Shown: piece by piece, positions 1,927-17,997 of the stretch
Numbering within the stretch: position 1 is the first letter of the stretch
Layout of the letters: each line of letters opens with the position of its first letter
Source of the DNA: a virus
Virus record (IMG/VR): IMGVR_UViG_3300035099_000192
Location: 1-20,465 of that record
DNA length: 20,465 bases
Strand: one strand, 5' to 3'
The notes under the pieces: generated by a model
Told to the model about the DNA's origin: nothing
What the model saw: the letters and a program-made list of their open reading frames with translations, nothing else
The model's database searches: none
Program-made: the position numbers and the translations under genes

Positions 1927-2340
1927 ATGAAACTTAAAAAGGTAACTGAGGGAGTTTGGTTCGATTATCCTGAAGAAAAAGGTGTTAGACTTAAAATCAG
2001 GTCTGTACCTTGGAGCAAAGCTCTAGACATACGTTCTTCTGTAAGAAAGAAGATAGTAATGAATATGCCTGATCCCCTCGATCCTACGAAAGTCATTCCT
2101 CAAATCGTAGATGATTACGATGAAGGAATAGTAGGAAAACAATTGTTTTACTACGCTTTGGAGGCTTGGGAGGGTATTGAATTAGAGTCTGCAGCTACAA
2201 CTGATGAGATTAAAGAGGCTATGTTTGATTATGCCCCCATAAGGGAATTCGTAATTGAAAAGGCTTCTGAATTAGCTAAACTTGATGCTAAGATAAAGGA
2301 TGATGAACTAAAAAACTCAGAGACCTCGCAGAGTGGGTGA
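1927..2340 (+). CDS. Tail assembly chaperone, short form (gpG-like)
   Basis: A 137-residue protein in the position of lambda gpG, between tube and tape measure. Short forms of this kind coat the tape measure during tail assembly and are absent from the finished virion. The sequence is mixed alpha/beta with a charged helical C terminus (SELAKLDAKIKDDEL). It has no recognisable catalytic motif, so the call rests on position, size and the two-frame arrangement. Codons 128-130 read CTA AAA AAC, giving the heptamer A_AAA_AAC. The -1 frame is closed by a TGA at 2304-2306 and then stays open to 2630. The start has the Shine-Dalgarno TAAGGAGGGC. The last 4 bases overlap the next reading frame. Confidence 0.75.
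   Translation: MKLKKVTEGVWFDYPEEKGVRLKIRSVPWSKALDIRSSVRKKIVMNMPDPLDPTKVIPQIVDDYDEGIVGKQLFYYALEAWEGIELESAATTDEIKEAMFDYAPIREFVIEKASELAKLDAKIKDDELKNSETSQSG
2310..2316 (+). other. -1 ribosomal frameshift slippery heptamer A_AAA_AAC
   Basis: In the frame of the upstream chaperone the bases read ct[A AAA AAC], the X_XXY_YYZ pattern. The -1 frame has a TGA at 2304-2306, so the switch can only occur between 2307 and the zero-frame stop at 2338-2340, and this heptamer lies in that gap. A -1 shift in the tail chaperone pair is established for lambda G/GT and many other long-tailed phages. The fusion would be 130 + 104 = 234 residues. Confidence 0.8.
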
Positions 2341-2630
2341 AAGATAGACGTAAGACAAAACGTTGGTGCCCAGATTGTCGTGAACATTACAAGCGAAAGT
2401 CCCTTGAACAGGGACTTTCGCTCAGCCCTCATTGCGAGGTTTGTTGGCCAGGGATAACAGATGCAAATATTGAAGCTTGGATGGTATTTATGTCAGCTTC
2501 TAAAGATCCATGGGGAATTAATCCTATGGGTATATGGGCAGTAATGCAAGCATTTGATATTGAAAATCAAAAAGATTGTATGGAAAAAGTGTTATTTTTG
2601 GCGAGCGAATCTCAAGATGAATCTAAATAA
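2316..2630 (+). CDS. Tail assembly chaperone, -1 frame extension (gpT-like) with zinc motif
   Basis: This frame is probably made only as the C-terminal part of a 234-residue fusion, continuing from the slippery heptamer with LRDLAEWVKDRRKTKRW. Read as a free gene it would begin at a GTG (2337) with no good Shine-Dalgarno, which favours frameshifting. The T-like part has two cysteine pairs, CPDC and CEVC, 18 residues apart, a probable zinc ribbon, followed by a hydrophobic stretch WMVFMSASKDPWGINPMGIW. In lambda the longer fusion recruits the tape measure while the short form coats it; the same division of work is inferred here. The gene ends 10 bases before the tape measure start. Confidence 0.7.
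   Translation, partial: LRDLAEWVKDRRKTKRWCPDCREHYKRKSLEQGLSLSPHCEVCWPGITDANIEAWMVFMSASKDPWGINPMGIWAVMQAFDIENQKDCMEKVLFLASESQDESK
2321..2442 (+). promoter_or_regulatory. Possible frameshift-stimulating RNA stem
   Basis: Bases 2321-2330 (AGACCTCGCA) can pair with 2433-2442 (TGCGAGGTTT): ten pairs including one G-U, eight of them contiguous Watson-Crick (2323-2330 with 2433-2440). The 5' arm begins 4 bases after the heptamer, the spacing usual for stimulators. The enclosed loop of about 100 bases contains the perfect hairpin at 2392-2422. No folding energy was computed; the role is inference. Confidence 0.4.
2392..2422 (+). repeat. Perfect 13-bp inverted repeat (hairpin) inside the chaperone extension
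   Basis: AGCGAAAGTCCCT, loop TGAAC, AGGGACTTTCGCT. All 13 pairs match. It encodes the linker between the two CxxC pairs. No T-run follows, so it is not an ordinary intrinsic terminator. It lies within the span closed by the possible 2321-2330/2433-2442 stem. Confidence 0.8.
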
Positions 2631-2640
2631 GGTTTAAATA

Positions 2641-5600
2641 ATGGCTTTAAAAGATGAATTAGAAACTATTATACGAGTTCATACAGAAGGTTTTGAAAGA
2701 ACCAAAGCGGAAATTAAATCCACCCAACAAAGTTTAGATAGTTTGCATGGCAAGACTGTTCCCATAAATATTGTACAAACAGGAAAATATCCTATTGGAG
2801 TGGGTACAAGATTTGGTTCTGCAGGCAGGGCGACTTATGATTTAGTTCAACAAATTACTGCTGAAGAACAACGGGTTCTTGAAATGATTCGCCCGAGCAA
2901 GGCTCAAATTGCAAGTCAATTAAGTGCTCCGATACTTGCAGGCACTCCAACAATTCTACGAAAAGGTGCGCCTGGTCTAATAGCTCCTATGATAGCCGAA
3001 ATGGAGCAAGCAGAAAAAGCTATGACTAATTTTTCTAATGTAGTAAATTCTGGTTTTATGCAATCGGCTACTGCTATGGAACAATTTAGTAAAAATGTTA
3101 CCGCTAGTACAGAAACTATAGGTCAATTAGAACAAAAGGCTTCTGCGGCAGCTGCTGCAGCTATGGGTATTGGGCTACCTCCAACTACTATAGGTCAATT
3201 AGCTTCAGCATCTCAAGCAGCCAAGCAAGTAAGTAATAATATGACAAATATATCTACTAGCGCTACTGTAGCAGCTTCTTCATTTGAAACGATAAATAAG
3301 AAATTCGCTACTAATATGATTAGGAAAGAATTGACAGGACTCCAAAGACAGCTCGTATTAACAGGAGATGTTACTGGAGATATTGGCAATAAAATTGCTT
3401 CACTCAGAACTAGATTTATAGATTTGGGTTTGGGAGGTTCTAAAAGTTTTGATGCATTAATTGAAAAATCTCAAAAATTGGGTAAAAATGCAACTTTTCT
3501 TCATCGTACATTTGAACGTATGGGTCGTACAATAGTGGCTTTCTTTGGGGTAACAGCTATATTTGGAGGGGCAGGTCTGTTTGTAAGAGCTATTGCTGAA
3601 GGAATTAAATTTAATGAAACATTAGAAAGAGCTAAGTTAGGAATAGCTTCAATTTTAACATCTCAAGGAGAATTTACAGATGCTACAAATAGATCAGTTC
3701 AAGGTTACACCAAACTAATTGCAGCTCAACAACTATCGGGTAATGTAATTAGACAATTACAAAAAGATAATCTTGAAACTATGGCTACTCTCGAACAATT
3801 AGTTACGGCATATCAACAAGCTGCAGCTTTTGGCTTATCTAAAGGATATAGTCCTGAACAAATTAGACAATATACTGTAGCTATGGTGCAGGCAGGTGGA
3901 GCTATTGGTATTCAATTGGATAGAATGGCTGAAGAAGTTCGTTCTTTAATGACAGGTGTGATTAGACCTGGGCAATCTTTAATAGCAGGGGTATTGGGTA
4001 TTACATCTGCAGATTATCAAAAATATAAAAGCGATGCCGCAGGTTGGTTTAATTTTATTATGGATAAACTTGAGGCTTTTAGAGAAGCAGGAGTAGAAAG
4101 TCAAAAAACATTTGCTGGTTTAATCTCAAATTTAAAAGATGCTTTTTCTATTGCTCTTGGAGAAGGTCTCGAACCTTTCTTCGAATATGCAAAGTCTGAG
4201 ATGTTTGGTTTGCAGAGAAATTTGGTTAGATGGAATGATGTTACTAAAAAGATGGAAGTTAATCCTAACTTTATTGAAGGTATGAAGGAAGTAAATAATC
4301 AATTAATAGGTACAATCGAATTAATAAAAGATTTATGTAGATTAATAGCAAATATACCAGGAATGGATTTCCTTTCAATAACATTAGGAGCTGTAAGTTC
4401 AATTTTAGCTTATGTCATAAAAAAATCTGCTGACGCTGAAGAAGAACTTAATAATCTTATTACTAAGGGACAGATGTTGAAAAAAGAACAGTGGGCCGGA
4501 GCTCCTCCTTTACGTGAGCCTTATAAAATAGATTTACCTAGATGGTTAAAAGAATTAAATGTAAAGATTATGGGTTATTTGGATCCACAAGCGGCAAAAG
4601 AATTTGACGAATTTATGTCCGATTTGCAAAAAAAGGGACAATTACGTATTACTCCTGTATTGGATACTTCTGCTATAAATAAAGATCAATTTATAAACAC
4701 TTTGTTGGAACAATTAGATATAAGTTCCAATCTTAAAGACATAACCGAAGAACAAGTTAAAGCTATTTATGAAGGTTTATCAAGTGGACAAAAAAAAGAA
4801 ATTGAAAAACTTTCTAATGTTTTTGTTACAGAACAAAAACGATTAGCTGAACAAGACATCTCCACTAAACCAGGAGGAATGTTTAGTACCAAAAGTATAG
4901 ATGAATACACTAAAAAATTAAATACTCTTCGAGATTCAATGTTAGCTTGGTTAGGGTTACTGCAATACAAAATAACTTCAAAACCTACAGAAGCTAAAGA
5001 ATCAGAAATAAATAAACAACAAGCAGCTATTGATAAACTTATTATAGCTACAGGACATCTTAGTGAAGAGAATAAAAAAGATGTCGAAGAATTATTAAAA
5101 AAACCAGAACTTTTAGAAAAATTTAATCAATTACTCTTATCCCAAAAAGTATCAATAATTGATATAATTCAAAGTAACAAAGACTTATTAGATATAGGAG
5201 ATCAAACTCTTGCTCAAAAGATAAAAGAGTTAGAGTTAATCCGAGTGAAGCAAATTCTTAGCGATTCTGAATTACAGAACCAAAATGAAATTTTAAAAGT
5301 ATGGGAAAATATAGATGAGCAACTGGGATTAACAAAACTCAAAGCTGAAAGCACTGCAAAAATATTTGAAAATATGGCAAATATGCAAGCCCCCAAATTT
5401 GATAGACCTAAAGGATTATCTAATCTCGAATTTATTGATCAAAAATTAAAATCAATTAAACAAAATACAAATACTGAAACTGAAGTAACAAAATCAGAAC
5501 GGGCTGTGGATGATCTTCGTAGTAAGTATGCTGATATGACTGGAGATATAGAGGAGCAGATTCGACTTTTGTATAAATCACTTGAAACGGATAATATAAA

Positions 5601-7167
5601 ATTACAGATTTATACCGATTTGGTAAACAAACAAAATCAACTGGCACTTTTGCAAGAAATGGTTGCTAAAGCAGGACCTACTGCATCTCCAGAAGAAAAA
5701 GCAATTACTGCTGAAATGACCAAAAGAATTGAACTTCTTGAAGATGAAGTTCAAAAATTACAAAAATTATCTGATCAATTCGATAAGACAGCAAAAGATG
5801 TTGTGGATTTTGAAGCGGCTCAAAAAAGGGCTTCAGAAGCATCGAATATAGCCGATTTGAATTATCAACTCCAACAATTAGTTGGAAGTTGGGAAGATGT
5901 GAAAAATGCCGAAATAGAGGCAGTAAAAGTTAAAGCTGAAATAGATAAACTAGGTAAAGATGAGAAACAAAAAAAACTTATAGATCAAATTACAGCTGCT
6001 AATGTATCCTACTTACAAGCTCAAAAGGACCTTAATTTTCAAATTCTTGCCGAACATGGATTAATTCAAACATCTCTCAAATTTAATCAAGAACTAGCAG
6101 ATCAATATGAAAATCTTATACCTAATGCGATAAGTACGACCACCGATGCCTTCCAAGCCTTTCTTGAGGATTTACAGAAAGGCACTGAAAAACCTTTTAC
6201 AAAATTATTAGATAATCTTCGTACAGGTTTAAATCAAATTTTTACTGATATATTTAAAACAAAAATTAAGCAAGTTGTTATTGATGTGGCTAAAGGTGGA
6301 AACATATTTGAAGCTATTATGGGTAAAAATAAAAATTTATTAGATATATTTGGATTGGGTCAAAAAGGAATTAATGAAGTCAAATTGGAAGGAGGATGTG
6401 TTCCTGTTGTTGTAAAAAATTGGAAGACAGAAGTAGGAGCAACTACTTCCTTTGGTGTAGGAGGGGCATGGGGAAGGACAACGGAATATCCTGACATTAT
6501 TGGGAAACTTCTTGAAGAAGCTAATTTACATCGGATGACAACTAACTGGAAGTATCCTTCAGGAACAAAATCTCCATTAGGAAATATGGAAGGAATAAGT
6601 GGAATTACTGGAGAAATGGGTAATATTGCAAGCAATATTCCAGGTGGAGGAGGAGTAGGAAACATATTAGGTAATATCTCAAATATTTTTGGGTCTTTTG
6701 CTAGTATAGCTAAAATATTGCCAGAATTGTCAAAATTTTGGTCTTGGTTAACAGGGCTGTTTGGGTTGATTGCGTTTCATGAGGGAGGAGAAATAAGACT
6801 TCATAAAGGAGGAGTGGGAAAACTCCGTCCTGGAGAAGTTTTGAGGATTCTTGAAGTTGGAGAAATAGTAACTAGAAAAGAATCAGTAAACTCAGAAACA
6901 AAACCTATGCTTGATTATATAAATGCTTACGGAAAAGTTCCATATCGTCCTGATAATTTTCGTATGCACAATGGAGGAAGTACTTCACTTGCATTCAAAC
7001 CAGATACTGCTGGGGTGCGAGCTTCAATAAAAGGAACAATTCCACAAAAACCAGCAGTAGTAAATGTAACATTGAATATAGCTACTCCTGATGCTTCATC
7101 TTTTAGGCGTTCTGAAAGGCAGATAAGAGATGAAGTAATGAGAGGAATAAAAGAAGGGATTCGTTAA
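2641..7167 (+). CDS. Tail tape measure protein
   Basis: By far the longest gene, 1508 residues, directly after the chaperone pair, as expected for the tape measure that sets tail length and later leaves through the tube. At about 0.15 nm per residue (the lambda rule) it predicts a tail near 225 nm. The sequence is mostly helical with long Gln/Glu/Lys/Leu-rich coiled-coil stretches (about 90-290 and 700-1230). Hydrophobic segments near residues 297-323 (TIVAFFGVTAIFGGAGLFV), 574-592 (FLSITLGAVSSILAYVI) and 1365-1381 (WSWLTGLFGLIAF) could insert in membranes during ejection. The C-terminal FHEGGEI...LHKGG...LRPGEV...VGEIVTRKES is the Gly-rich beta segment typical of tape measure ends. No peptidase or transglycosylase motif was recognised. 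The Shine-Dalgarno is weak (TAAGG, 8 bases before ATG). Confidence 0.92.
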   Translation: MALKDELETIIRVHTEGFERTKAEIKSTQQSLDSLHGKTVPINIVQTGKYPIGVGTRFGSAGRATYDLVQQITAEEQRVLEMIRPSKAQIASQLSAPILAGTPTILRKGAPGLIAPMIAEMEQAEKAMTNFSNVVNSGFMQSATAMEQFSKNVTASTETIGQLEQKASAAAAAAMGIGLPPTTIGQLASASQAAKQVSNNMTNISTSATVAASSFETINKKFATNMIRKELTGLQRQLVLTGDVTGDIGNKIASLRTRFIDLGLGGSKSFDALIEKSQKLGKNATFLHRTFERMGRTIVAFFGVTAIFGGAGLFVRAIAEGIKFNETLERAKLGIASILTSQGEFTDATNRSVQGYTKLIAAQQLSGNVIRQLQKDNLETMATLEQLVTAYQQAAAFGLSKGYSPEQIRQYTVAMVQAGGAIGIQLDRMAEEVRSLMTGVIRPGQSLIAGVLGITSADYQKYKSDAAGWFNFIMDKLEAFREAGVESQKTFAGLISNLKDAFSIALGEGLEPFFEYAKSEMFGLQRNLVRWNDVTKKMEVNPNFIEGMKEVNNQLIGTIELIKDLCRLIANIPGMDFLSITLGAVSSILAYVIKKSADAEEELNNLITKGQMLKKEQWAGAPPLREPYKIDLPRWLKELNVKIMGYLDPQAAKEFDEFMSDLQKKGQLRITPVLDTSAINKDQFINTLLEQLDISSNLKDITEEQVKAIYEGLSSGQKKEIEKLSNVFVTEQKRLAEQDISTKPGGMFSTKSIDEYTKKLNTLRDSMLAWLGLLQYKITSKPTEAKESEINKQQAAIDKLIIATGHLSEENKKDVEELLKKPELLEKFNQLLLSQKVSIIDIIQSNKDLLDIGDQTLAQKIKELELIRVKQILSDSELQNQNEILKVWENIDEQLGLTKLKAESTAKIFENMANMQAPKFDRPKGLSNLEFIDQKLKSIKQNTNTETEVTKSERAVDDLRSKYADMTGDIEEQIRLLYKSLETDNIKLQIYTDLVNKQNQLALLQEMVAKAGPTASPEEKAITAEMTKRIELLEDEVQKLQKLSDQFDKTAKDVVDFEAAQKRASEASNIADLNYQLQQLVGSWEDVKNAEIEAVKVKAEIDKLGKDEKQKKLIDQITAANVSYLQAQKDLNFQILAEHGLIQTSLKFNQELADQYENLIPNAISTTTDAFQAFLEDLQKGTEKPFTKLLDNLRTGLNQIFTDIFKTKIKQVVIDVAKGGNIFEAIMGKNKNLLDIFGLGQKGINEVKLEGGCVPVVVKNWKTEVGATTSFGVGGAWGRTTEYPDIIGKLLEEANLHRMTTNWKYPSGTKSPLGNMEGISGITGEMGNIASNIPGGGGVGNILGNISNIFGSFASIAKILPELSKFWSWLTGLFGLIAFHEGGEIRLHKGGVGKLRPGEVLRILEVGEIVTRKESVNSETKPMLDYINAYGKVPYRPDNFRMHNGGSTSLAFKPDTAGVRASIKGTIPQKPAVVNVTLNIATPDASSFRRSERQIRDEVMRGIKEGIR

Positions 7168-7176
7168 GGAGAACCA

Positions 7177-7839
7177 ATGTCTTTTCATGAAGTCCGATTT
7201 CCAACAGATATTTCATATGGTAGTAAAGGTGGTCCAGAATTCAATACCAATATTGTAGAAACTGCAAGTGGATATGAACAACGAAATGCCTACTGGACAT
7301 ATGCAAGACATAAATATGATGTTGCTTATGGAATTAAACTTGCTTCTCAGCTTACTGCACTGATAAAATTCTTTAATGCAAGAAGAGGAAGAGCTTATGG
7401 TTTTCGTTATAAGGATTGGGCAGATTATCGGACATTAGGAGGATCGGGAGTTGTAAATGGTTATGGAATCGCTATAGATCCTAATGATCCTGATGAAAAA
7501 CACTATCAGGTATATAAACGTTATACTGATACTGGTGCAACTTATGACAGAATACTAAGAAAGATTGTAGATAATTCCTGGATTGTGTATATTGGTCCCA
7601 ATCCCATAACCATAACAAAGGATAACAACGATCCCCCAGCAGGGAATACAATAAATACAAACACAGGAATAATCACTTTTGCTAATCATCCTTCTGGTGA
7701 AGTAACAATTACTTGTGAATTTGATGTTCCAGTTCGTTTTGATGTGGATTATCTTCCTGTAATATTAGAAAACTGGAATCCAGAAACAGATAATTTCGTT
7801 GGGCAGCTCTCTGTACCATTGATAGAGATAAAATGCTAA
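7177..7839 (+). CDS. DUF2460 distal tail protein (RcGTA gp12-like)
   Basis: A 220-residue protein whose first 90 residues match DUF2460/TIGR02217 very closely: FHEVRFPTDISYGSKGGPEF, SGYEQRNAYWTYARHKYDV, and FFNARRGRAYGFRYKDWADY. The end, VPVRFDVDYLPVILENW...VPLIEIKC, also fits. In the Rhodobacter gene transfer agent the homologue is the distal tail protein that joins tube to hub. The Shine-Dalgarno AAGGAG overlaps the tape measure stop codon, so the two are coupled. Length is usual for the family. Confidence 0.9.
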   Translation: MSFHEVRFPTDISYGSKGGPEFNTNIVETASGYEQRNAYWTYARHKYDVAYGIKLASQLTALIKFFNARRGRAYGFRYKDWADYRTLGGSGVVNGYGIAIDPNDPDEKHYQVYKRYTDTGATYDRILRKIVDNSWIVYIGPNPITITKDNNDPPAGNTINTNTGIITFANHPSGEVTITCEFDVPVRFDVDYLPVILENWNPETDNFVGQLSVPLIEIKC

Positions 7840-14096: not shown

Positions 14097-16580
14097 ATGG
14101 CAAGAACTCCAAAACTAAATCTGAATAAAATATATCCTCAACAGGAAGACAATGAAGGAAAAATAACTGATTCCTTTCGTATTCTGGATTCATTAGTACA
14201 ACCTTCAGTTCTTGATATGAATTTGAACTCTCCACCTGCAAATCCAAACGAAGGTGATTGTTATGTGGTAGGAACATCTCCTACAGGGGCGTGGGCTGGA
14301 CATAAGAACCACATAACTGAATATTATGAAGGTGAATGGAGGTTTATCGTCCCTCGTAATGGTTGGATGGTTTGGGCTATTGATGAAGGGAAAGCTTATT
14401 ATTTTGATGTGGACCGATGGAAAAAAGCCATTGGCTGGTCTGCAGAAATTGGTACAACTGATTTAGAAAATTTTGCCGTTGATGCATCTAAATTATGGAC
14501 TAATGTAATTATGCTAGAAGGAGATACATGGACATTCACTAGTGGGAAGTTAACATGGAATCAGCACAATCTCTATTTAAATGGAACAAAATATGTTATT
14601 GCAGCAGGAGTATTACCAGATACAAATAAAAGATATGTGTATTGGAGGAAAGGTGCTCCCACTATCTATTTATCATCTACTTCTCATCCTGCTGATAATG
14701 GGACAATAAATAGTGATCCTAGTAGTGCTAATTATGGATTTCTGATAGCAATTCAATATGGAGCAAATAGTTATGAGCTTGCTTGGAACTCCTTTGCGAA
14801 TGCTGTAATAGGAACTGCTTATATTTCAGATGCAGCTGTTACTAATGCCAAGATTGCGAGCATATCTGCGGATAAAATAACTGTTGGAGATATTGATACC
14901 GCACGAATGCAGGGCAATGCTGCGAATGCTGTAAATGCAGGCTATGTTAAGATCATTCCTGGACAAGTTCTAATTTCTGGAAATACCTCACTTTCTGATT
15001 GGAGACATGGTACTGATTATACAAAAATAGCGGGAGCAGCTATTTATACAGGTTCAATCACAGCAGATAAGATAACTATAGGTAATAGAAATATTGCTAT
15101 ATCAGGATTAGGATTTTATACCCATCCATCTTATCCAAACAAACTATTTTGGGAAGCTGGAACAATTTCTTATCTTGATGACAATTTGACTCCTGTTACC
15201 AAGAACATAAGTGCTAATGCCCCACCAAATGGAGTACAATGGACAAATGGGACAATCTGGATATATTGGGTTAAGGATGCTACTACATTGAGTTCGGGGA
15301 CAGTTTCTCAGGCATTTGGAGATGCCAATCATCCGAATAATCTGGTTTTGGGTAGTTATAGTGGAGGAAAAAGTTATGTAGAAAATTATGGTCGAACAAT
15401 CATAGATGGTAGTCATATAACAACAGGAACAATTCAATCATCTGATGGTAATGTCTATTTTAATCTCGATAATGCTACTATATCTGTTAATAAATTAGGT
15501 GGATTACATATATTAGGTAGTGGTGGAATAGCTATCGATGATGGTGGCGATATTGCTGTAGAAACTACCACTTCTGATACGGGGGAGCTTTATTGGTGGA
15601 GAGAAGATGCTTATACAGGAACTAAAAAACTTCTTCGTATGTATGCATCATACGAAAAACAAGAACCAATTCCAGGAAGTCCTGCATATCTAAATTATGT
15701 TTATGTTAAAGGTGTTGCTGGTACTAATTCGACTGAGACGTTGGAAGTTTCTGCTTTTAATTATATTGGTATTACTGCCATTAATAAGATTTCTTTTACT
15801 GTTCCTTCTTTTGATTTAACTGGTACATTTCGTCTAACTGGAAATGCTTCATTAGGTGGGAAATATTACACTTTTCCTACTACAGGCACAGTGGGAAATT
15901 TTTTAAAGATTGCAAGTGGAACTGGTACAAGTAGTGATCCTTTTATACTTAATTGGGCTACTGTAAGCGGTGGCGGGGATGTATATAAATCTGGCTCTCC
16001 TGCTGCTAATCAAGTTGCCTTCTGGACTGATGGAACTCATATTGGCGGTTATTCTGGTTTTACTTATGACTCTTCTAATGGTGTCCTTACCGTAGCAGGA
16101 AGCATAAATACTCCTGTTTTTGCAAGGGGAAGCGGTCAACACTTTGATTGGAATATTGGTTCTGTAAATAGGATGTATCTTTTTGCAGACTCTTGGGGAA
16201 TTCAACTTACCAGTGGAGGACTTGCAAGTTTTACTTCTGGTAATACAACTTTTACTGTATACGATACAGCAGGTGGTGGAGTTTATTTTCAGGCTGGATA
16301 CTCTAATGCCTATCATCGTTTCCAAATTCTGGATGCAGGTGGCTCAAATCGAAATGTTGCTATTTTTGGTTTAAATACTATTAGTTTAGGCTGGACTTCA
16401 ACAAACAGAGTAAATTTCATTGCTGGCGCAACCTCACCCAGTGTTCCTCCAAACGGGGCTACTGGATCGCCTGGTATCTGGAGATATGGAATTAATAGTG
16501 ATTCCTGGTTAGGAACTCCAAATGGTTGGCTTGATGTACAGATAAATGGAACTGCTGCAAAAATCCCTTACTATATATAA
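14097..16580 (+). CDS. Tail fibre / receptor-binding protein with N-terminal DUF2793 domain
   Basis: An 827-residue protein whose first 115 residues are a DUF2793 domain (RTPKLNLNKI, NSPPANPNEGDCYVVGTSPTG, YYEGEWRFIVPRNGW), found at the base of phage fibres. Two diverged copies of one beta module follow, about residues 141-264 and 335-448, each with a WIYW/YVYW-type strand and each ending in a short helix-strand motif (SISADKITVGDI, GSITADKITIG, HITTGTIQSSDG). The rest is Gly/Ser/Thr/Asn-rich beta structure of trimeric fibre type, with GGDVYKSGSPAANQVAFWTDG near 625-645. It ends in WLDVQINGTAAKIPYYI, a common fibre end that is not an intramolecular chaperone. The start is one base after the hub stop. 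The role, host recognition, is inferred from domains and position. The receptor is unknown. Confidence 0.82.
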   Translation: MARTPKLNLNKIYPQQEDNEGKITDSFRILDSLVQPSVLDMNLNSPPANPNEGDCYVVGTSPTGAWAGHKNHITEYYEGEWRFIVPRNGWMVWAIDEGKAYYFDVDRWKKAIGWSAEIGTTDLENFAVDASKLWTNVIMLEGDTWTFTSGKLTWNQHNLYLNGTKYVIAAGVLPDTNKRYVYWRKGAPTIYLSSTSHPADNGTINSDPSSANYGFLIAIQYGANSYELAWNSFANAVIGTAYISDAAVTNAKIASISADKITVGDIDTARMQGNAANAVNAGYVKIIPGQVLISGNTSLSDWRHGTDYTKIAGAAIYTGSITADKITIGNRNIAISGLGFYTHPSYPNKLFWEAGTISYLDDNLTPVTKNISANAPPNGVQWTNGTIWIYWVKDATTLSSGTVSQAFGDANHPNNLVLGSYSGGKSYVENYGRTIIDGSHITTGTIQSSDGNVYFNLDNATISVNKLGGLHILGSGGIAIDDGGDIAVETTTSDTGELYWWREDAYTGTKKLLRMYASYEKQEPIPGSPAYLNYVYVKGVAGTNSTETLEVSAFNYIGITAINKISFTVPSFDLTGTFRLTGNASLGGKYYTFPTTGTVGNFLKIASGTGTSSDPFILNWATVSGGGDVYKSGSPAANQVAFWTDGTHIGGYSGFTYDSSNGVLTVAGSINTPVFARGSGQHFDWNIGSVNRMYLFADSWGIQLTSGGLASFTSGNTTFTVYDTAGGGVYFQAGYSNAYHRFQILDAGGSNRNVAIFGLNTISLGWTSTNRVNFIAGATSPSVPPNGATGSPGIWRYGINSDSWLGTPNGWLDVQINGTAAKIPYYI

Positions 16581-17001: not shown

Positions 17002-17310
17002 ATGAAAAAATTTTTCATAAATATATTAATAATATTTGGATTTTTAACAGTGGCACAAGCTGAATGTATTACAGCAGAACAGATAGTGGAGCAAATACGT
17101 TATTCCTTAAAAGAGATTCCTCAAAGTATGGAAACTCTTTATCAGATAGAATATTTTGCTAATCAGCATTACAATACAGATTGGAATACTGTTATGGACG
17201 CTTATAATAATTATAGCGATGATGGGGAATGGGGATGGTTAATAATTGAAGAGTATTATCGAGAATATCAAGATTGTATAAATCAACAAAAGGAGGGTCG
17301 CAATGAATGA
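17002..17310 (+). CDS. Small secreted protein with Sec signal peptide
   Basis: A 102-residue protein with a clear signal peptide: KK, a hydrophobic core FFINILIIFGFLTV and AQA before E21, a type I cleavage site. There is no lipobox. The mature part is about 82 residues, acidic and tyrosine-rich, with two cysteines (C22, C92) that could form a disulfide in the periplasm. W61-x2-V64-x3-Y68-x2-Y71 and W79-x2-I82-x3-Y86-x2-Y89 repeat a motif also seen in the tail hub. The ATG has AAAGGTG 6 bases upstream; a GTG three codons earlier is less likely. It overlaps the next gene by 8 bases. It was not recognised as a spanin or holin. A role at the host envelope, such as blocking superinfection, is speculation. 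Confidence 0.65.
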   Translation: MKKFFINILIIFGFLTVAQAECITAEQIVEQIRYSLKEIPQSMETLYQIEYFANQHYNTDWNTVMDAYNNYSDDGEWGWLIIEEYYREYQDCINQQKEGRNE

Positions 17311-17560
17311 AAAAAACGAAAAAAAGAGACATCAGGAAGAACGACAGAGACAAAATGAGCAATTTATCGTTACCAGAGGGCAGATAGAAGAAATTATCAA
17401 TCGTATGGAACAATTAGGAACAGCTTTTTCTCGTGACCAATTAGGGCAGGTCCTGACTCAATTTGTCCTTATGAGTTTCACCAGTCTCTATAATCAAAAC
17501 ATTGATTTATTAAGAAACATTTTACAACAGCCTTCAGTTCCTGAGAAGGAGAAAGTATAA
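17303..17560 (+). CDS. Hypothetical 85-residue helical protein
   Basis: The ATG is backed by a strong AAGGAGGG site inside the end of the secreted-protein gene, so the two are a coupled pair. The N terminus is very charged (NEKNEKKRHQEERQRQNEQ). It is followed by two predicted amphipathic helices (GQIEEIINRMEQLGTAFS, QLGQVLTQFVLMSFTSLY) and a short tail. There is no cysteine, no signal peptide and no convincing membrane segment, although QVLTQFVLMSFTSLY is fairly hydrophobic. No family was recognised. About 100 very AT-rich bases without a gene follow. Confidence 0.6.
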   Translation: MNEKNEKKRHQEERQRQNEQFIVTRGQIEEIINRMEQLGTAFSRDQLGQVLTQFVLMSFTSLYNQNIDLLRNILQQPSVPEKEKV

Positions 17561-17661: not shown

Positions 17662-17997
17662 ATGTCAACACCACGCTTAAATTTGGATGAATTAGAAATA
17701 GGGCAGGCACAACCAGAAGTAACGTTCAATGAAGCCATGAAAAAACTTGATGTATTTGCTATGCCCGTAGCTCTAGCAATACAAAATAGTCCTCCAACAT
17801 CTCCAGCGGAGGGAAACATTTATATTGTAGGAACATCGCCAACAGGAGTTTGGCAAACTCATAGTGGTCAAATAGCTCAATATTACAATGGTGCTTGGGT
17901 ATATTATACCCCAAGTGCAGGATGGTGTTTCTCTGTTGTTGCAAATGGCTTATACGTATATATAAATACAATTTGGACAAGAAAAATAACATACTAA
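17662..17997 (+). CDS. Stand-alone DUF2793 protein, paralogue of the fibre N terminus
   Basis: A 111-residue protein made only of DUF2793: STPRLNLDELEIGQAQPEVT, NSPPTSPAEGNIYIVGTSPTG, AQYYNGAWVYYTPSAGW. It aligns along its whole length with residues 1-112 of the fibre gene at 14097, sharing VGTSPTG-x-W-x2-H, YY-x-G-x-W and P-x2-GW. The stop follows directly after the domain, so it lacks a fibre shaft. It may bind where the fibre binds, be a second small receptor-contact protein, or be a remnant of a second fibre. It has its own AAAGGAG site 8 bases before the ATG after a gene-free gap of about 100 bases, so separate expression is possible. Confidence 0.78.
   Translation: MSTPRLNLDELEIGQAQPEVTFNEAMKKLDVFAMPVALAIQNSPPTSPAEGNIYIVGTSPTGVWQTHSGQIAQYYNGAWVYYTPSAGWCFSVVANGLYVYINTIWTRKITY

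Follow-up and report, generated by a model that had tools for sequence, protein, structure and literature searches.

A Probable Programmed -1 Frameshift Signal with a Large Branched RNA Stem in the Tail Assembly Chaperone Genes of a Phage Contig

The tail assembly chaperone genes of the virus record studied here probably use a programmed -1 ribosomal frameshift to produce a 234-aa G-T fusion, with a branched RNA stem serving as the stimulator. The RNA structure downstream of the slippery heptamer was stronger than coding or composition predicts, and it was located at the expected spacing. Chaperone frameshifting has long been known and is an established feature of long-tailed phages (PMC5009743), of which this site is a clear new example, distinguished by its large RNA stem. 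The signal is well formed and strongly structured, and the phage lineage that contributes it is isolated.

Genome Context and the Chaperone Proteins G and T

The window, which means the whole stretch of DNA analysed, was the 20,465-base IMG/VR virus record IMGVR_UViG_3300035099_000192. It carried a tail module and had a GC content of 35%, and its source appears to be an uncultivated, long-tailed phage. The gene of the major tail protein (1502-1912, matching phrog_1407) was located directly before the G ORF. The tape measure protein, the expected partner of the chaperone, was assigned from length and position to an ORF of 1508 aa on the plus strand (2641-7167), whose first 586 aa weakly matched a PHROG of 1572 aa. 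The arrangement by which G/G-T pairs are recognised, namely two ORFs between the major tail protein and tape measure genes with the second in the -1 frame, was found here.

The G ORF (1927-2340, plus strand, frame 0) ran from the ATG at 1927 to the TGA at 2338-2340 and encoded 137 aa. Its assignment as the tail assembly chaperone was based on its position between the major tail protein and tape measure genes, on its match to the PHROG "Tail assembly chaperone" (phrog_313, E 4.7e-8), and on its predicted fold (pLDDT 77), for which the BFVD matches were annotated phage tail assembly or pre-tape measure chaperones (best E 6e-4). The comparison of this fold with the PDB gave nothing significant. 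T was the extension in the -1 frame (2307-2630, plus strand), adding 104 residues to 130 of G. The T protein had no match in the family databases, and its structure was predicted with low confidence (pLDDT 52). Furthermore, T showed weak sequence likeness to the T proteins of remote relatives, and the profile comparison was also weak; BLASTP against the T of the relative L021 gave an E value of 0.013, a figure for one single comparison. Judged by sequence, T was not demonstrably homologous to the T proteins of the relatives, which counts against the frameshift reading.

Slippery Heptamer and Predicted Fusion

The heptamer A_AAA_AAC at 2310-2316 on the plus strand was in the frame-0 phase (CTA AAA AAC), and it was the only in-phase X_XXY_YYZ heptamer inside the overlap of G and T. 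The initial annotation had proposed that the TGA at 2304-2306 closes the -1 frame and leaves a shift window of about 30 bases that contains this heptamer. The sequence agreed with the stop codon, after which the frame was open from 2307 to 2630, and with a heptamer in the correct phase and the sole one of its kind; the overlap was also there, with its length corrected to 34 nt. Slippage at this site would join 130 and 104 residues, which agrees with the 234 residues predicted earlier. The junction reads ELKN/LRDLAEW, and the peptide LNLRDL given before lacked a K, the translation being LKN/LRDL.

Moreover, an SD-like AGGA (2297-2300, plus strand) was located 9 nt before the heptamer and may be an upstream stimulator. 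It agreed with the list of stimulatory SD motifs and with the spacing in a previous study (PMC4066793), although 12% of in-gene positions paired equally well with the anti-SD. According to the same study, A_AAA_AAC and G_GGA_AAC have low efficiency in E. coli, yet IS elements very likely make use of them (PMC4066793). Elsewhere in the window, A_AAA_AAC (17311) and A_AAA_AAG (17320) also occurred in phase close to the start of the ORF at 17303-17560; both are probably there by chance in this AT-rich genome.

Geometry and Stability of the RNA Stem

The long-range outer stem was formed on the plus strand by a 5' arm at 2318-2331 and a 3' arm at 2432-2446. Its core (2321-2330/2433-2442) comprised 10 bp, including one G-U, and the pair probabilities for 2321-2330, computed in a 244-nt context, were 0.93-1.0. 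The stem was extended outward by three pairs (2318-2320/2444-2446) past a one-base bulge and inward by a G-U pair (2331/2432). It enclosed a perfect 13-bp hairpin with a 5-nt loop (2392-2422, plus strand), in which 2392-2404 and 2410-2422 were paired at 13 of 13 positions. Both the pairing of the 10-base arms and the perfect hairpin had been described in the initial annotation, and both were borne out. The outer stem began 1-4 nt after the heptamer, and its first C-G pair was 7 nt after it. In a search for exact complements within 2447-2560, no partner of more than 6 bases was found for any loop as a possible pseudoknot, and the Rfam search gave no match. An intrinsic terminator was considered for the hairpin and rejected, as by reading no T run followed it on either strand.

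The segment 2317-2450 had a folding energy of -51.6 kcal/mol, with a z of -4.5 against dinucleotide shuffles. Among about 2030 segments of 134 nt, those starting at 2311 and 2321 were more stable than all others of the contig, and after correction for GC the one starting at 2311 was still first. The contribution of the coding sequence was assessed with synonymous nulls in which the T protein was fixed, comprising 1000 codon-usage samples and 1000 permutations of the codons of T itself. In each of them, the MFE and the hairpin energy were matched by 0 of 1000. The energy of the outer arm was matched by 3-4% of the synonymous recodings, a test with restricted freedom at the 3' arm, which overlaps the codons for C-E-V-C. 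When the downstream sequence was shuffled, the outer arm was equalled in 7 of 2000 cases and the stretch 2321-2330 alone in 1 of 2000. In addition, a perfect 13-bp inverted repeat with a loop of 3-10 nt occurred 0 times in 60 shuffled contigs. As a feature of the RNA, the hairpin thus had strong support from these synonymous and shuffle nulls, and the outer stem had moderate support. The structure exceeded what composition and coding account for, just downstream of the in-phase heptamer.

The hairpin rules of the previous study, made for finding IS3-type stimulators, require 17-140 nt, a start 4-10 nt after the motif that is formed by a G-C pair and followed by at least 3 more pairs, and at least 7.6 kcal/mol (PMC4066793). 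Under these rules, a 116-nt structure of 45.8 kcal/mol was found from 2324, and 0 of 150 random positions were as strong. The excess stability per nt was 0.081 kcal/mol, as calculated in steps of 3 nt and with another version of the program, and the published minimum of the IS set was 0.09. The position of this excess just under 0.09 and the 3-4% of recodings that reached the outer arm were counted against the main reading.

Chaperone Pairs in Remote Relatives

In viral_contigs, none of the four proteins used as queries (G, T, the major tail protein and the tape measure protein) led to a relative, and the exact hairpin pattern was absent; the tblastn searches of G and T in phages returned none. 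In the collections scanned, there was no close relative that could be aligned at the DNA level. The search with the DUF2460 protein (7177-7839) gave remote relatives only, with a best full-length match of 44% and one partial match of 63% (L039). The named phages matched by this protein were mostly from alphaproteobacterial hosts, yet the contig had a GC content of 35%.

The chaperone pairs picked from the DUF2460 loci mostly had -1 overlaps with A_AAA_AAC or G_GGA_AAC; one had G_GGA_AAG and one A_AAT_TTA. The downstream fold was outstanding among the positions of the same contig in L027, L048, L058 and L067 and unremarkable in most others, and the mean z over 17 junctions, which were not all independent, was -0.83. 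The absence of an outstanding downstream fold in most relatives was also counted against the main reading. In the chaperone -1 overlaps of L058 (3188-3897), L027 (4466-5043) and L048 (3518-4050), A_AAA_AAC was followed closely by unusually stable hairpins, that of L058 being a perfect 11-bp stem. In the L061 group, about 60 nt were enclosed by a long-range stem about 9 bp in length, and the variation within this sister group, a single G-U change together with broken pairs in L086, was too small to count compensatory changes.

In Microcystis phage Mwe-JY26 (L067, 4991-5374; PP438418.1, 83803-84186), G_GGA_AAC was followed by a strong fold. The protein annotated in this phage as "pre-tape measure chaperone" begins at 83938, so that 135 nt of the -1 open frame lie before its start. 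The annotation therefore probably misses a frameshift product.

Proposed Mechanism and Alternative Explanations

We infer the occurrence of frameshifting, its efficiency and the stimulatory role of the structure from these elements. Most ribosomes would translate G and terminate at 2340. In a minority, the tRNA-Lys and tRNA-Asn bound to AAA AAC would re-pair one base back, and these ribosomes would go on into T. The weak A_AAA_AAC would be offset by the outer stem capped with the 13-bp hairpin, which would hold the ribosome and raise shifting to the required level. Combining a weak motif with a strong branched stem would then fix G-T at a modest level, which is the most economical reading. By analogy with lambda, in which the two products are made at 30:1 (PMC5009743), the tape measure protein would be coated by many copies of G and few of G-T, which would also recruit the major tail protein. 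The structure-stimulated -1 frameshift of the initial annotation was supported by the gene order, by the matches of G in PHROG and in the fold comparison, by the -1 overlap with its in-phase heptamer, and by the fold excess and the spacing. Furthermore, this reading is favoured because remote relatives have -1 overlaps with A_AAA_AAC or G_GGA_AAC, several of them with strong stems.

The frameshift might be real and the heptamer, perhaps with the SD-like element, enough for it, in which case the stem would have no role or would serve another purpose, for instance RNase III processing or the stability of the mRNA. We regard this as unlikely. Several relatives with the same heptamer type lacked an outstanding fold, and prokaryotic -1 frameshift regions do not always show structures (PMC4066793). 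However, the heptamer is a weak motif, the outer arm starts directly after it, and the strongest fold of the contig sits exactly at this place.

The other two alternatives dispense with ribosomal slippage. Separate production of T by termination-reinitiation, as a protein of 97 aa from the GTG at 2337, would be suggested by the overlap of this start with the stop codon of G (GTGA), but its SD was weak (-2.9 kcal/mol, where several other tail genes had values between -9 and -13), and the in-phase heptamer would be left unexplained. Moreover, a start was absent at the corresponding place in most relatives. The lack, in most of them, of a plausible T start close to the stop of G favours a fusion, and we consider reinitiation very improbable. 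Transcriptional slippage on the A6 run could also put G and T in one frame, and a run of six A is indeed present at the site; such a run is short for efficient transcriptional slippage. The G_GGA_AAC of the relatives is not a single homopolymer, however, and the downstream stem would not be needed, which makes this explanation the hardest of all to believe.

Comparison with Known Frameshift Systems

Stimulators of this kind are already known from IS elements and dnaX. Branched ones have been described, including the three-way junction of IS911 (PMC5009743), and conserved hairpins were predicted in 3 of 5 phage clusters (PMC4066793). The pair studied here resembled lambda G/G-T (PMC5009743) in the gene order, in a -1 shift late in G and in a minority fusion as the deduced outcome. 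Unlike lambda, which uses G_GGA_AAG, it had A_AAA_AAC and a strong branched downstream stem, and its T was without detectable sequence similarity to described families. As in the IS3 family and IS911 (PMC4066793, PMC5009743), a branched hairpin, with a size in the range of 17-140 nt, followed the heptamer after a few nt. A_AAA_AAC is also found in IS elements, and the IS911 signal is a three-way junction. In contrast to those elements, the present signal was in a phage tail gene and not in a transposase, was predicted from the sequence and had no pseudoknot partner in our search. The pairs of the remote relatives (L027, L048, L058, L067 and the L061 group) likewise had a -1 overlap, an AAC-type heptamer and downstream stems of various shapes, whereas the sizes and positions of their stems differed and their DNA was too distant for an alignment with the window.

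Judging from this small set, AAC-type heptamers in chaperone genes may be accompanied by large downstream stems, an association that could be tested across many genomes. It is a tentative and rather doubtful proposal that weak AAC-type heptamers in phage chaperone genes are offset by large branched long-range stems, so that a fold of more than 120 nt within the T coding region would set the ratio of G to G-T and influence tail assembly.

Other Features of the Window

The major tail protein gene was directly preceded by two ORFs, an HNH endonuclease ORF carrying NUMOD3 repeats (68-730) and one (723-1481) whose match to a glycosyltransferase was below the threshold. In addition, the N-terminus of a large tail-fibre-like ORF (14097-16580) was, by reading, apparently duplicated in a small ORF (17662-17997), and the two had the motif ...PPxxPxEGxxYxVGTSPTGxW... 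in common.
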